Notes under the pieces: generated by a model
The model's database searches: none
Told to the model about the DNA's origin: nothing
The model's input: the letters and a program-made list of their open reading frames with translations, nothing else
Shown: piece by piece, positions 4,368 to 55,877 of the stretch
How positions within the stretch are numbered: position 1 is the first letter of the stretch
How the letters are laid out: each line of letters starts with the position of its first letter
Assembly: GCA_015060885.1 (NCBI GenBank)
Contig: SUXO01000001.1
Location: 1-64,000, forward strand
Direction of reading: 5' to 3'
Length of the DNA: 64,000 bases
Origin: Bacteroidales bacterium
GTDB lineage: Bacteria; Bacteroidota; Bacteroidia; Bacteroidales; Bacteroidaceae
Position numbers and translations under genes: made by a program

Positions 4368-4394
4368 ATAAATCCCGGCAGAACCGGGATTTAT
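4368..4394. terminator. hairpin ATAAATCCCGG-CAGAA-CCGGGATTTAT downstream of distal DGR-type target
   Basis: Perfect 11-bp inverted repeat, 5-nt loop, just after the stop codon of the 4402-5460 gene. Confidence 0.7.
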
Positions 4395-4401
4395 GGGTTG
4401 T

Positions 4402-5460
4402 TTACGGGCAAACAGGGCGCACCGAGTAGCCGAAGGAGCGTTTGTCGTTGTACCACTCGAAGTAGCCGCTGTAGAAGTACAGGTAGTAAGCGTAGTAGCT
4501 GCGGCTGCTGCACAACGAACTCGACCAATAGTAGCCGCTGGTGCCTCCCGTACCGCCGCGGTAGCCCGCAGCGGGCAGGAAGATGCTGTTGCCATTGGGG
4601 CCGGTTACACGGTAACCCTCTACGCCGTTAAGAGTAGTCCAAGTCCAAGTGCAGTTGTTTATGAGTTCTCGTTGTTCTTCGTCGGTAGGCATTCGCCAAC
4701 TGCCGCCCCATTTAACGCTGGCTACATCGTCACCTGCTTCAAGGGTGGTTTTGTTGTCCACGGTGCCGTAACTGCTGCTTGTGCAGTATTTGGTCATCGA
4801 GTTAAAAGTGCCATTGCAATATTTATAGGTGCTCCATGAGTAGTCGCTCTTCTCCTCTGTTTCGCCCCAAGCGTAGTAACCGCCATACTCTTCGGGCTTT
4901 GTGGCACCCACATTGCACGAGGCCCATTTAAGTCCACTGGGCAAGCCGAGGTCAACAGCGCGTGAGTCGGTGGTAGGGGTGTCATCGTCGCTGTCGGGGT
5001 TCAGTATTATATTCACAACCTCGGTTACGTCGGCCACATCAACAGTGCCGTCACCATCGACATCGCCTTTCTTGCCTGCGGTTTCGGGGATTGTGATGGT
5101 GGCGTTGATTATCTTTGCCTGGTCGCTGCCGCTACTGCCACCATAGTCTTTGGTGTATTGGGCTACAAAGGTATAGACGCCGCTTTCGGTGAATTCGTGG
5201 GTGTAGGTGCCGCTGGCGGTTCCGCTCTTTTTAAGGATTTGGGTGCCGTCGAGGGTAACAATGAGCCAATCGTAATTGCTCTCGCTGCTTACGCTCCAAT
5301 CGAAAGTAAAAGTACAACCGGCGAAAGCACATATACCATAGCTGTTCTGTGAACTGCTGTTGTTGGTGCCGCCGTTGGTGGAGGTCCAGTCCTTGAAGGT
5401 CTGTGCACCGGCTGCAACAGTGAGCAGTAGGGCGGTTAAAAACAGGTAAATCTTTTTCAT
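4402..5460 (-). CDS. secreted protein with dockerin-like EF-hand segment and C-terminal FISUMP/C-type-lectin-like domain; candidate remote DGR target (VR2)
   Basis: Signal peptide MKKIYLFLTALLLTVAAGAQ, GDVDGDGTVDVADVTEVVNIIL, C-terminal LPAAGYRGGTGG...SVRPVCP; highly similar to 54610-55704. Confidence 0.8.
   Translation of the reverse strand: MKKIYLFLTALLLTVAAGAQTFKDWTSTNGGTNNSSSQNSYGICAFAGCTFTFDWSVSSESNYDWLIVTLDGTQILKKSGTASGTYTHEFTESGVYTFVAQYTKDYGGSSGSDQAKIINATITIPETAGKKGDVDGDGTVDVADVTEVVNIILNPDSDDDTPTTDSRAVDLGLPSGLKWASCNVGATKPEEYGGYYAWGETEEKSDYSWSTYKYCNGTFNSMTKYCTSSSYGTVDNKTTLEAGDDVASVKWGGSWRMPTDEEQRELINNCTWTWTTLNGVEGYRVTGPNGNSIFLPAAGYRGGTGGTSGYYWSSSLCSSRSYYAYYLYFYSGYFEWYNDKRSFGYSVRPVCP
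4412..4579 (-). repeat. candidate remote DGR variable repeat VR2 (168 nt)
   Basis: Aligns to the TR at 53112-53291 with about 24 adenine-site substitutions, about 4 non-adenine substitutions and one 12-nt deletion (hand alignment). Confidence 0.75.
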
Positions 5461-12591: not shown

Positions 12592-12672
12592 AACTTTAAC
12601 AACGGCGACTATACCAAGAGCAACCGTGGTGACAGCTTCAACGGCCACACGGTGCACCCTGTTTGCCCGTAA
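12592..12672 (+). pseudogene. orphan DGR TR/VR-like (FISUMP C-terminal) fragment
   Basis: AAC TTT AAC AAC GGC GAC TAT ... TTC AAC GGC CAC ACG GTG CAC CCT GTT TGC CCG TAA = NFNNGDYTKSNRGDSFNGHTVHPVCP*; matches the 3' part of the TR (NGHTVRPV) and the VR2 end (PVCP*). Confidence 0.75.
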
Positions 12673-50943: not shown

Positions 50944-51633
50944 TTAGCAGGTTCCTGCACAGGGGCAGAATGCGTATGCGGCAACCACGGCAAGGAAGCC
51001 GAGAATGATGATGGTAACAATTACATTACCGATAACCTTCCAGCGGTTGAACCATATCTGGTTGGCCCAGCCAAGTGTCTGCATAGCACTCCAAAAACCG
51101 TGGGTGAGGTGGAACCACAAAGCAACAAGCCATATTACATAGAGAGCTACGTAAACAGGGCAAGCGAATGTCTCCTTGATGTAGTGTACACCGTCGGCTG
51201 CAAGTGAAGCATCGACATTGGCACCAAGCATATGAAGAACCTCGACCAACTGCATATTGGCCCAGAAGTTGAACAAGTGCAATGCCATACCCAGGATTAC
51301 AATAACACCAAGTACAAACATATTCTGTGAAGCCCACTCAACAGTTTTAGGCTTTACAGTGTAGGCATAACCCTGACCACCGCGAGCCTTCTTGTTCTGC
51401 AAGGTGAGGATGATAGCGTAAACGAAGTGCACTACCACGAGAGCGGCAAGACCGGCAGTAGCGATGAGCGCATACCAGTTGGCTCCCAGAAACTCACAAA
51501 TCATGTTGTACCCCTCGGCGCTGAAAATAGCAACCAAGTTCATTGACATGTGGAAAAGAAGGAAGAGTACAAGGGCAATACCCGAAACACTCATGATTAC
51601 CTTTTTTCCGACCGAAGAATTAAATAACCACAT
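50944..51633 (-). CDS. sdhC: succinate dehydrogenase/fumarate reductase cytochrome b subunit
   Basis: KKVIMSVSGIALVLFLLFHMSMNL; WFHLTHGFWSAMQTLG; operon position. Confidence 0.93.
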   Translation of the reverse strand: MWLFNSSVGKKVIMSVSGIALVLFLLFHMSMNLVAIFSAEGYNMICEFLGANWYALIATAGLAALVVVHFVYAIILTLQNKKARGGQGYAYTVKPKTVEWASQNMFVLGVIVILGMALHLFNFWANMQLVEVLHMLGANVDASLAADGVHYIKETFACPVYVALYVIWLVALWFHLTHGFWSAMQTLGWANQIWFNRWKVIGNVIVTIIILGFLAVVAAYAFCPCAGTC

Positions 51634-51892: not shown

Positions 51893-53092
51893 TCAAGTTG
51901 ATGAACCCCTGCTATAAACGAATTTTGAAAAACCATCGTTGAAACGGCCAAATTTAAGCAAGAAAGGAAGTGCTCCAAACATACATTTTCTTAACCCGAA
52001 ACTCGCATAATGCGACAACACCCCCAAAAAAGAATTAACCGAAGCACGTAAATATTCAGCACCATCATCGCCCGACAAAAGAGATACTTTCCTTTTCATT
52101 CTGCTCAATGACCTGTTTGCTATATAACTCCTGTAAGGTTTTGCATAACCGCCAAGAAATTCCACACCGTAACGCGCCTCGCGAATAAACAATTTATGCG
52201 GATGAACCTTCAAGCACAAAGCGTCGCGCAAAAAATCACTGACAACAGGCACTATGTCGCGTAATTCACCCTTATAAGGAGAAACAAAGAATGCATCATC
52301 AACATAACGCCCGTAACGTACGCCTCGTATATTACGTTTCACAAATTGGTCGATAACATTCATATAGACATTGCTGAAAAGTTGCGATGTTAAGTTACCG
52401 ATGGGCAACCCCTGCCCACAACCACTGTGAAAAAGACTCTTGTTACGCGGTAATCCACACCAATCGGCAGCAGAGCCCTTGATTTTACAACCTTCCAATG
52501 GGTCGTTCATTATTATCACTTGCGACAAATAGAGCAACAAAGAATAATCCAACTTATCACACCAACGTTTGCCTGCACAATCGGACGGCCTATCGGCCAT
52601 TCTAAGCAAAGCATCCCGGCAAATGTCAAACAGCCGCCTGCGCGATATATGCATAAAATATCCCATAATATCCATTTTAAGCACAAAGCACGGGCGGGTA
52701 TAATTCCTCGACACACTGCGTATGTGATGTTGCAGACGTTTAAAACCATAGTGTGTACCCTTTCCCTTTCGACAGCTATAACTATCGGCAATAAAAGTAC
52801 GCTCGAACAGCGCACACGTATAGTTATAATAAAGATGATGCACAACCCTGTCGCGAAATTCAGCTGCAAAAATCTCACGTTGTTTGGGGTCGTTTATTAT
52901 GAAACAAGTGGATGGAGCCGGTATATACCTCCGTTCCACAAGTTCGTCACGCAAAGCCACTAATTCTGTTTCAAAATCAAGTTCAAAAGACAATTGATAA
53001 AAACGTTTCCTTTTATGCCTGCGGGCATCCCTGTACGCTTTATACAAATCGACAAGAAGCTGTTGCGGAGTAATACAAAAAGAAGAAGGCAC
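51893..53092 (-). CDS. DGR reverse transcriptase
   Basis: FVLKMDIMGYFMHI, QGLPIGNLTSQLFSNVYMNVIDQFV (DGR-type motif 4 context), YGRYVDDAFFV catalytic box. ORF is open back to 53377 through the TR; a GTG at 53092 is a plausible start. Confidence 0.92.
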   Translation of the reverse strand: MPSSFCITPQQLLVDLYKAYRDARRHKRKRFYQLSFELDFETELVALRDELVERRYIPAPSTCFIINDPKQREIFAAEFRDRVVHHLYYNYTCALFERTFIADSYSCRKGKGTHYGFKRLQHHIRSVSRNYTRPCFVLKMDIMGYFMHISRRRLFDICRDALLRMADRPSDCAGKRWCDKLDYSLLLYLSQVIIMNDPLEGCKIKGSAADWCGLPRNKSLFHSGCGQGLPIGNLTSQLFSNVYMNVIDQFVKRNIRGVRYGRYVDDAFFVSPYKGELRDIVPVVSDFLRDALCLKVHPHKLFIREARYGVEFLGGYAKPYRSYIANRSLSRMKRKVSLLSGDDGAEYLRASVNSFLGVLSHYASFGLRKCMFGALPFLLKFGRFNDGFSKFVYSRGSST

Positions 53093-53104
53093 AGGAACCG
53101 CAAG

Positions 53105-53291
53105 TTCTGAGACAGGGCGCACCGTGTGGCCGTTGTAGCGGTTGTTGTTGTTCCAGTCGTAGTTGCCGCTGTTGAAGTTCAGGTTGTAAGCGTTGTTGCT
53201 GTTGTTGCTGTTCAACGAACTCGACCAATAGTTGCCGTTGGAGCCCTGGTTGTTGGCTTCCGTACCGTTGCGGTAGCCCGCAGCGGGCAGG
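53105..53291 (-). repeat. DGR template repeat (TR), 187 nt
   Basis: AAC-rich coding-strand sequence (SLNSNNSNNAYNLNFNSGNYDWNNNNRYNGHTVRPVSE) between avd and RT; gap-free with VR1, about 27 differences all at TR adenines. Confidence 0.95.
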
Positions 53292-53460
53292 CAAGCGGGA
53301 CAGCCATCTGTAATGAATGCCGATGCGGAGGCTTTATGCAACGTATCGGCAGGCTTTCTTAAATAATTTCCTGCCACCGCGTTTTTTCACTGTTTATTAA
53401 CGTATTCTCTTACATAGCAGGCAGGCTGTCTGAATTTGCTGTGGCACACTGCCGACGACC

Positions 53461-53853
53461 TTAATCGTGCGACACTCCGGCGACAAGCCCCTGCCCTTCT
53501 CTTTTGCTCCCCTTGTATGTGGCGCGTTCCCAAGCAGCCAACTGTTTCGACACCGAAACGGTAATCTCCATGAACATTGCAAATTGTTTGTCACTCAACT
53601 GCCGTGTATCATTGAACACCCTTAACAAAATCTGCACCTCCACAAGTTTCTCTCGCGCCTGTGATATATATTCAGCCTTGCTAAATGATTTATTAGCCTT
53701 GAATATCAGAACCAGCATATCCATCGAAGCACGTTTCACCTGCTCGCCCAGCGTGTAACGATAGTCGCGCCCCATCCTCGCCGTGCTTGTTACTAATTGC
53801 AGAAACAGACGATAGCACTCTTCATATACTTTCAGTTCGGTATATACAGCCAT
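53461..53853 (-). CDS. avd: DGR accessory variability determinant Avd (four-helix bundle, S23-like)
   Basis: YTELKVYEECYRLFLQLVTSTARMGRDYRYTLGEQVKRASMDMLVLIFKANKSFSK...AREKLVEVQILLRVFNDTRQLSDKQF; located between accessory gene and TR. Confidence 0.88.
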   Translation of the reverse strand: MAVYTELKVYEECYRLFLQLVTSTARMGRDYRYTLGEQVKRASMDMLVLIFKANKSFSKAEYISQAREKLVEVQILLRVFNDTRQLSDKQFAMFMEITVSVSKQLAAWERATYKGSKREGQGLVAGVSHD

Positions 53854-54360
53854 TTACAATAACCCTTTTAGCTCGGCAACAAAACACATACACTCCACCG
53901 GAGTGCGGCTTTCAACAGGAAAAGCTCGCAAGCGGGCAAGCGCTTCGCTCTCCCCCGGATTGTGCGACCGCAACACCTGAATTTCTGTGGCAGTTGCCGA
54001 AACAGTTTCGCTTCGTGCAGCCAAGCTTGCGCACAATGGTTGAGCACTTTTCCACTCCTCGAAAGTACCATCGCACGGCACCTCATATTGCGGAAGCACA
54101 AGATGCACTACACCATTCTCCACAGCTAATGAACGCCCCGCAGCCAATTTTTCGAGCGAATTCATAGGAAAACCTATACTCACAACATCCCGGCCCACAC
54201 ATTTCACATATTGTTTCTTTACCTTGAACGTGTGAACCGCGACGCTGAACAGCCACGCACTATGTTCATAGGCGATGTAAAAAACACCCTCACGATGGAG
54301 TATCACCGTGTTCAACGGTTTTTCTGCTTCCAACTGCAGTTTTTCCTTTATTGTTGCCAT
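53854..54360 (-). CDS. DGR accessory protein, MutS-domain-I-like (MSL type)
   Basis: VILHREGVFYIAYEHSAWLFSVAVHTFKVKKQYVKCVGRDVVSIGFPMNSLEKL; directly abuts avd. Confidence 0.65.
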   Translation of the reverse strand: MATIKEKLQLEAEKPLNTVILHREGVFYIAYEHSAWLFSVAVHTFKVKKQYVKCVGRDVVSIGFPMNSLEKLAAGRSLAVENGVVHLVLPQYEVPCDGTFEEWKSAQPLCASLAARSETVSATATEIQVLRSHNPGESEALARLRAFPVESRTPVECMCFVAELKGLL

Positions 54361-54588: not shown

Positions 54589-54613
54589 ATAACAAAAACG
54601 AGCTTTTTGTTAT
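54589..54613. other. hairpin ATAACAAAAA-CGAGC-TTTTTGTTAT immediately 3' of VR1
   Basis: Perfect 10-bp inverted repeat overlapping the stop codon of the target gene. Confidence 0.85.
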
Positions 54614-55704
54614 TCTGAGACAGGGCGCACCGTGTGGCCGTAGTAGCGGCCGTAGTAGTACCAGTCGTAGCCGCCGCTGTAGAAGTACAGGCTGCAAGCG
54701 CTGTAGCTGTAGTAGCTGAACAACGAACTCGACCAACAGAAGCCGTAGGAGCCCTGGCCGTAGGCTCCCGTACCGCTGCGGTAGCCCGCAGCGGGCAGGA
54801 AGATGCTGTTGCCGTTGGGCCCGGTTACGCGGTAACCGTTAACACCGTTAAGAGTAGTCCAAGTCCAAGTGCACTTGTTTATGAGTTCTTGTTGTTCTTC
54901 GGTGGTGGGCATTCGCCAATTGCCGCCCCATTTAACGCTGGCTACATCGTCACTTGCTTCAAGGGTGGTTTTGTTGTCCACGGTGCCGTAACTGCTGCTT
55001 GTGCAGTATTTGGTCATTGTGTCATAAGTGCCGTTGCAATATTTATAGGTATCCCAGTCATAGTCGCTCTTCTCCTCTGTTTCGCCCCAAGCGTAATAGC
55101 CGCCGTACTCTTCGGGAGCGGTGGCACCCACGTTGCACGAGGCCCATTTAACCGAGAGGCCCAGGTCGATGGCGGTACCGACAGTTACAGAAGGGGTGCC
55201 GGGGGTAACAGTTGTGTTATCATCGTCATCGCTATCGGGGTTCAGTATTATATTCACAACCTCGGTAACATCGGCAACATCAATGCTGCCGTCGCCATCG
55301 ACGTCGCCTTTCTTGCCTGTGTTTGTTTCGGGGATTGTGATGGTGGCGTTGGTGATTTTTGCTTGGTCGCTGCCGCTGCTGCCACTGCCGTCTTTGGTGT
55401 ATTGGGCTACAAAGGTATAGACGCCGCTTTCGCTGAATTCGTGGGTGTAGGTGCCGTTGGCAGTTCCGCTCTTTTTAAGGATTTGGGTACCGTCGAGGGT
55501 AATAATGAGCCAGTCGTAATTGCTCTCGCTGCTTACGCTCCAATCGAAGGTGAAGGCGCAACCGGCTACTACTCCAACCGTGTAGCTGTTTTGCGATGTG
55601 CTGTTGTTGGTGCCGCCGTTGGTGGAGGTCCAATCCTTGAAGGTCTGCGCGCCGGCTGCAACAGTGAGCAGCAAGGCGGTTAAAAACAGGTAAATCTTTT
55701 TCAT
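54610..55704 (-). CDS. DGR target: secreted protein with dockerin-like EF-hand and C-terminal FISUMP/CLec-like variable domain
   Basis: Signal peptide MKKIYLFLTALLLTVAAGAQ; KKGDVDGDGSIDVADVTEVVNIIL; VR1 encodes GYRSGTGAYGQGSYGFCWSSSLFSYYSYSACSLYFYSGGYDWYYYGRYYGHTVRPVSE. Confidence 0.9.
   Translation of the reverse strand: MKKIYLFLTALLLTVAAGAQTFKDWTSTNGGTNNSTSQNSYTVGVVAGCAFTFDWSVSSESNYDWLIITLDGTQILKKSGTANGTYTHEFSESGVYTFVAQYTKDGSGSSGSDQAKITNATITIPETNTGKKGDVDGDGSIDVADVTEVVNIILNPDSDDDDNTTVTPGTPSVTVGTAIDLGLSVKWASCNVGATAPEEYGGYYAWGETEEKSDYDWDTYKYCNGTYDTMTKYCTSSSYGTVDNKTTLEASDDVASVKWGGNWRMPTTEEQQELINKCTWTWTTLNGVNGYRVTGPNGNSIFLPAAGYRSGTGAYGQGSYGFCWSSSLFSYYSYSACSLYFYSGGYDWYYYGRYYGHTVRPVSE
54613..54799 (-). 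repeat. DGR variable repeat VR1, 187 nt
   Basis: Gap-free alignment with the TR; substitutions only at TR adenines (hand count about 27). Confidence 0.95.

Positions 55705-55827: not shown

Positions 55828-55877
<50 letters not shown>

Follow-up and report, generated by a model that had tools for sequence, protein, structure and literature searches.

The closest described counterpart of the locus reported here is the diversity-generating retroelement (DGR) of the Bordetella phage BPP-1 (bRT, Avd, and Mtd), in which a template repeat (TR) and a variable repeat (VR) differ specifically at adenines, a reverse transcriptase (RT) is accompanied by Avd, and the target protein has a C-type-lectin fold. 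A stem-loop that includes the stop codon lies directly after its VR and is required (PMC3240598), and the avd coding sequence lies 5' of TR, with a structured spacer on the 3' side (PMC12875486). MutS-like (MSL) proteins have already been named as DGR accessories, together with HRDC (PMC10053308). Our literature search for MSL or MutS-like DGR accessories returned one review-type mention only, and no function of the Rfam RNA RT-7 (RF03028) was found in the literature searched.

We analyzed a 64,000-nt stretch of DNA (the window) from Bacteroidales bacterium (GCA_015060885.1, contig SUXO01000001.1, positions 1 to 64,000), and obtained by computation the signature of its repeats, the cassette around them, the predicted fold of the target, further targets in the genome, and the absence of the island from the closest species. 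The locus has an A-specific TR/VR pair, a DGR-type RT adjoining TR, accessory proteins (Avd and MSL), and a post-VR stem-loop, and we read it as a chromosomal (cellular) DGR of this bacterium, with a probability of about 0.96 on the sequence evidence. The A-specific repeats, the RT with Avd, the C-type-lectin-fold target, and the stem-loop with its stop codon are shared with BPP-1. In contrast to BPP-1, the DGR is chromosomal, carries the extra MSL protein, has its structured RNA upstream of TR, and has a TR that nearly touches the conserved RT frame. In the proposed mechanism, RT would copy a TR-containing RNA into cDNA while misreading adenines, and the mutated cDNA would replace the repeat at the 3' end of the lectin-fold gene (VR1). 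Three remote VRs would be replaced likewise, more rarely or longer ago, and the lectin face would vary with TR unchanged. By analogy with studied DGRs, the homing reaction would run as it does in them, the stem-loop would have a part in it, and the target protein would be displayed at the surface and bind a ligand. More cautiously, Avd and MSL may act together with RT, and the RNA upstream of TR may form one molecule with TR as its 5' leader.

Adenine-specific divergence between TR and its variable repeats

TR (53105-53291, minus strand) contains 57 adenines, including 19 in-frame AAC codons, and VR1 (54613-54799, minus strand) makes up the final 62 codons of the target gene. A sequence-only reading had described the two as a gap-free match over 187 nt with about 27 substitutions, each at a TR adenine. 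Exact alignment of the reverse complements agrees with this description in full: across 187 columns with 0 gaps there are 27 mismatches, all 27 at TR adenines, and tabulation by template base gives no change at C, G, or T (0 of 130). If 27 mismatches were placed at random, all would fall on A with P = 5e-17. None of the 19 AAC codons is left as it was: 11 become TAC (Tyr), 3 AGC (Ser), 3 GGC (Gly), and 2 TTC (Phe), as that reading had also noted for these four outcomes, and outside them there are only three single changes (GAA>GGA, TAT>TGT, and TAC>TGC). By class, the substitutions are 15 A>T, 12 A>G, and 0 A>C; the missing A>C class was considered as a special feature and rejected because A>C accounts for only about 8% of A changes in the clade, which makes zero among 27 unremarkable.

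The clade was sampled through 49 related RT loci, mostly in Bacteroidales genomes from herbivore guts; the majority of these loci yielded A-biased TR/VR pairs in an automated search. In 37 pairs (the window and 36 homologous loci), changes occur at 889 of 1954 A positions compared with 77 of 5159 non-A positions, and comprise 461 A>G, 360 A>T, and 68 A>C. Within AAY codons, the first A is changed in 72% and the second in 39%; compared with what independent change at the two positions would give, there is too much Tyr and almost no Cys. Reconstituted BPP-1 bRT by itself tends to turn AAC into codons for Tyr, Ser, and Asp (PMC12875486); these outcomes may therefore owe something to mutation bias as well as to selection. 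At A before C (the AAC context), A>C amounts to about 2% in the clade of the window, whereas G misincorporation by BPP-1 bRT in E. coli reaches 26.8% (PMC12875486), a gap that could reflect a different error profile or selection on VRs.

A DNA search of the whole genome (a 2.24 Mb draft assembly in 64 contigs) with TR found VR1, three remote copies, and one 31-nt relic. The remote VRs differ from TR at 25 of 54 A and 7 of 126 non-A positions (C37:35347-35526; 6 non-A in a second alignment), at 26 of 54 and 9 of 126 (C47:1611-1790; 8 in the second alignment), and at 23 of 49 and 5 of 119 (C53:4412-4579, inside the window; 4 in the second alignment; P = 1.8e-10). Across the three remote VRs, the individual P values of the A bias are 1.8e-10, 1.4e-9, and 5e-10. 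The VR inside the window belongs to a second target gene (4402-5460, minus strand, 352 aa), which has a 27-nt hairpin at 4368-4394. The relic (12632-12662) is short, degenerate, and VR-like, with a single-stranded-DNA-binding-like gene on one side and a rho-like gene on the other.

The C-terminal domain of the target has many paralogues in the genome, and these bear on a different explanation, namely that TR and VR1 are ordinary paralogues whose A bias comes from selection on the Asn codons of a lectin loop and not from error-prone reverse transcription. All 19 changed AAC codons do yield plausible binding residues, and the Tyr excess and near-absence of Cys in the clade hint at selection on top of mutation. 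However, nine other paralogous target domains of the same genome, presumably under similar selection, show mismatch rates that are comparable at A and non-A (non-A mismatch of 26-37%, P 0.013-0.31 in in-frame alignments); therefore, the bias is not inherent to the gene family, and this control speaks strongly against selection as its source. The 130 non-A sites of VR1 are without any change, silent or other, and the same A-specific pattern recurs in 36 other loci, each beside an RT. We consider selection on paralogues hardly credible as an explanation. A separate 1253-aa frame of the genome (within C20:12000-16200) contains several target-like lectin domains in tandem, and in none of them is there a clear A bias relative to TR.

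Repeated overwriting from a single template is the outcome to which the identities between targets point: VR non-A positions are 91-97% identical, compared with 82-90% in the upstream 330 nt, and VR identity at A positions is only 41-49%. On this sequence comparison, VR1 appears to be the freshest or most often rewritten target, because it has 0 non-A differences from TR while the remote VRs carry 4-9. The claim that its retrohoming was "recent" is thus fair in a relative sense only; with their non-A differences, the three remote VRs may be of greater age or inactive. The mutagenic retrohoming claimed along with it is supported by the RT, Avd, lectin-fold target, and post-VR stem-loop that adjoin the repeats and by the 36 homologous loci with the same A-specific relation. 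VR1 might also have been written in the past by a DGR that has since decayed. The data come from a 64-contig draft read from sequence alone, and the non-A drift in the remote VRs and the relic would fit such decay. Against it, none of the reading frames of RT, Avd, MSL, and the target is interrupted and VR1 shows zero drift; we regard a dead system as unlikely, although less so than selection on paralogues.

Cassette, target protein, and genomic site

The minus-strand order of the cassette is target gene, MSL, Avd, RT-7-like RNA, TR, and RT. The RT (51893-53098, minus strand; 401 aa used) matches PHROG 1423 Reverse transcriptase (E 1.3e-79) and Pfam RVT_1 (E 2.7e-11), has the motifs GQGLPIGNLTSQ and YVDD, and in a 49-row RT tree falls among RTs whose loci carry A-biased TR/VR pairs. 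Its frame is open to 53377, thus across 53105-53377, and includes the whole TR in frame with the lectin codons of the target. Translation of TR as part of the RT was rejected as a general feature because a stop closes the frame in many relatives; in some it is open. The same genome has a second RT (C42:38028-38606), a 354-aa frame that matches RVT_1 better than the DGR RT does. Avd (53461-53853, minus strand, 130 aa) matches PHROG 3206 "Avd protein of DGR" (E 3.7e-20), as well as NF033474 (E 3e-11) and Pfam bAvd (E 2.3e-8), both under their cut-offs, and 23S_rRNA_IVP (E 7e-9), over its cut-off.

The target gene (54610-55704, minus strand) is an open reading frame of 364 aa with an N-terminal signal-peptide-like segment (judged by eye), a beta-rich region, a dockerin-like segment, and a C-terminal Lcl_C/C-type-lectin domain ending in VR1. 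Pfam matches to Lcl_C (E 9.5e-6) and Dockerin_1 (E 9e-4) are both under the curated cut-off. AlphaFold2 modeling of the C-terminal 190 aa only gave a pLDDT of 97.7. In a VIA-align search with this model, rows 1-14 are nearly all chains of the C-type-lectin fold (Z 7.9-4.6; next row 3.2), headed by the C-terminal domain of Legionella Lcl (Z 7.9, 2.5 A over 99 residues); Mtd, the target of BPP-1, is among them (Z 7.1, 3.0 A over 121 residues). Plain Foldseek returned no match for the target domain at E<=0.001. The model thus places VR1 at the C-terminal end of a predicted C-type-lectin domain. The lectin is probably secreted. About 130 nt upstream of the gene lies a (CA)21.5 tract (55833-55875), the only CA run of at least 24 nt in the assembly, which could make target expression phase-variable.

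Directly after VR1 lies a stem-loop (54590-54612, minus strand) with a 9-bp stem (TAACAAAAA/TTTTTGTTA); the stop codon is part of it, and it stands out from shuffles (p=0.005). By analogy with the required BPP-1 hairpin at the same place, it is a candidate hairpin or cruciform adjoining the site where homing would be initiated. Stem-loops follow all four VRs, with stems of 11-15 bp after the three remote ones. The remote hairpin, 27 nt long and unlike that of VR1, occurs in 3 copies in the assembly, each just after a remote VR, and these copies could simply have been duplicated along with the gene ends.

The island is flanked by sdh/frd genes on one side (sdhC at 50944-51633, named from sequence) and by mnmG (56598) on the other. 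In four close species the sdhC-mnmG gap measures 272-277 nt and is empty of the island. Homology of the window to this empty spacer stops at about 51769; therefore, the island replaced the rest of the spacer. The family sample includes 11 genus mates, of which a single one has an RT, and that RT is only distantly related. The target family is widespread in the genus. Because of the empty site in the four close species and this near-absence of RT, the DGR element was probably gained in this lineage.

The MutS-like protein and the structured RNA upstream of TR

The MSL protein (53854-54360, minus strand, 168 aa) combines a predicted MutS domain I with a MutS-like C-terminal tail and belongs to a family present at 45-47 related DGR loci. 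By itself it receives no name from the databases and reaches Pfam MutS_I (PF01624) at E 0.1, under the cut-off, but 22 of 33 rows in the family alignment match this domain (best E 1.9e-6). Its AlphaFold2 model has a pLDDT of 89, and in a VIA-align search with model residues 1-90, rows 1-41 are all MutS, from Z 7.2 (3.0 A over 81 residues) to 4.5, with the next row at 4.2. An hhalign comparison with the MutS of the same genome (873 aa) pairs residues 4-76 with MutS 12-84; a second, weaker match joins residues 134-167 to MutS 838-871. When MSL was used for profile searches against PDB sequences, no credible hit emerged. Taken at the family level, these alignments and the model place the MSL N-terminal region as homologous to MutS domain I. 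In MutS, a Phe stacks on the mismatch; the MSL Phe aligned with it is kept in 32 of 33 rows, and where MutS has a Glu two residues further on, 32 of 33 rows carry R, H, or K and the window protein carries Ile.

The low score of the window protein is what would be expected if it were an unrelated neighbor and no part of the DGR. However, MSL is found at nearly all close DGR relatives, searches of whole genomes place full-length MSL only beside a DGR RT, and in two Bacteroidales loci MSL and Avd are one fused protein (L050, 4760-5647, with the fusion gene after the RT; and L052, 533-1291). An unrelated neighbor is therefore a very improbable account. Like the known MSL accessories (PMC10053308), the protein has MutS domain I similarity and its gene lies within the DGR cassette; it differs in standing alongside Avd and in being fused to Avd in the two relatives, and perhaps also in its C-terminal tail, which is MutS-like too. 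An effect of MSL on the mutation spectrum was considered and set aside: AAC outcomes are alike in MSL-only and MSL+Avd loci, and Avd-only loci are too few.

Abutting the 5' end of TR is a 189-nt structured RNA (53293-53481, minus strand), which matches RF03028 over its full length (1-191) between avd and TR (E 2.4e-15). We call it RT-7-like and not a member of RT-7 because its 70.7 bits are under the gathering score of 116.8. An RT-7-like RNA also lies between Avd and RT in G192, where it is over the gathering score, and in G074 and G098. On its sequence and position, it is a probable leader of the template RNA, and the leader would tie Rfam RT-7 to DGR template RNAs at these loci.

A smaller consensus fold emerges from the 150-180 nt that precede TR at 26 MSL-only loci, with 87% of cells paired. 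This consensus has 106 double changes compared with 36.5 in shuffles (0 of 500 reach 106) and 14-25 when slid, counts that lean toward structure because they were made on the alignment that predicted it; even so, they exceed the slid controls by a wide margin. A model of the MSL-only leader (R1) recovered the same place in seven loci kept out of training and missed the leaders of the window, L011, L061, L066, and L067. A common origin of the MSL-only leader and RT-7 is suggested by their shared layout (GUAAAUUC before the closing stem) and not by a score.

Accessory variation across the related loci

An iterated profile search of all ORFs of the loci gave 47 hits for MSL and 10 for Avd, and across the 49 RTs the cassettes range from Avd-only through MSL+Avd (the window) and the MSL-Avd fusion to an MSL-only clade. 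In the RT tree, Avd-only and MSL+Avd rows diverge early. The window forms a pair with L011 (96/86), each having MSL+Avd, and L061 (MSL+Avd) comes next. A 34-row clade (95/93) is MSL-only, except for two rows in which neither accessory was found. PHROG 3206 gave no Avd hit anywhere in the three MSL-only genomes searched with it, of which one is a single contig. Because the tree is rooted at its midpoint, any direction of accessory change is an inference. While the TR/VR1 finding itself is ordinary for a DGR, this series of accessories and leaders is the less expected part.

A tentative reading, which we hold to be possible but on balance doubtful, is that a truncated MutS first joined and then replaced Avd, with the 5' leader of the template RNA changing alongside, and that MSL acts on the mismatched heteroduplex of cDNA and target, for instance to keep host mismatch repair away from it. 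MSL would then be a domain I that kept its Phe, with Glu replaced by a basic residue, and a MutS-like tail; the window would be an intermediate with both proteins, and the leader would be RT-7-like where Avd is present and reduced but covarying where it is absent.

The system is thus of a known kind, a DGR, here with less-studied accessory parts, namely a MutS-like protein in truncated form and, just upstream of TR, a structured RNA. It offers a clean natural case of hypermutation targeted to a lectin, probably a secreted one, of a Bacteroidales bacterium, with negative controls built into the genome, and the lineage makes DGR homing without Avd, and the role of a MutS fragment in a machine that installs mismatches, testable.
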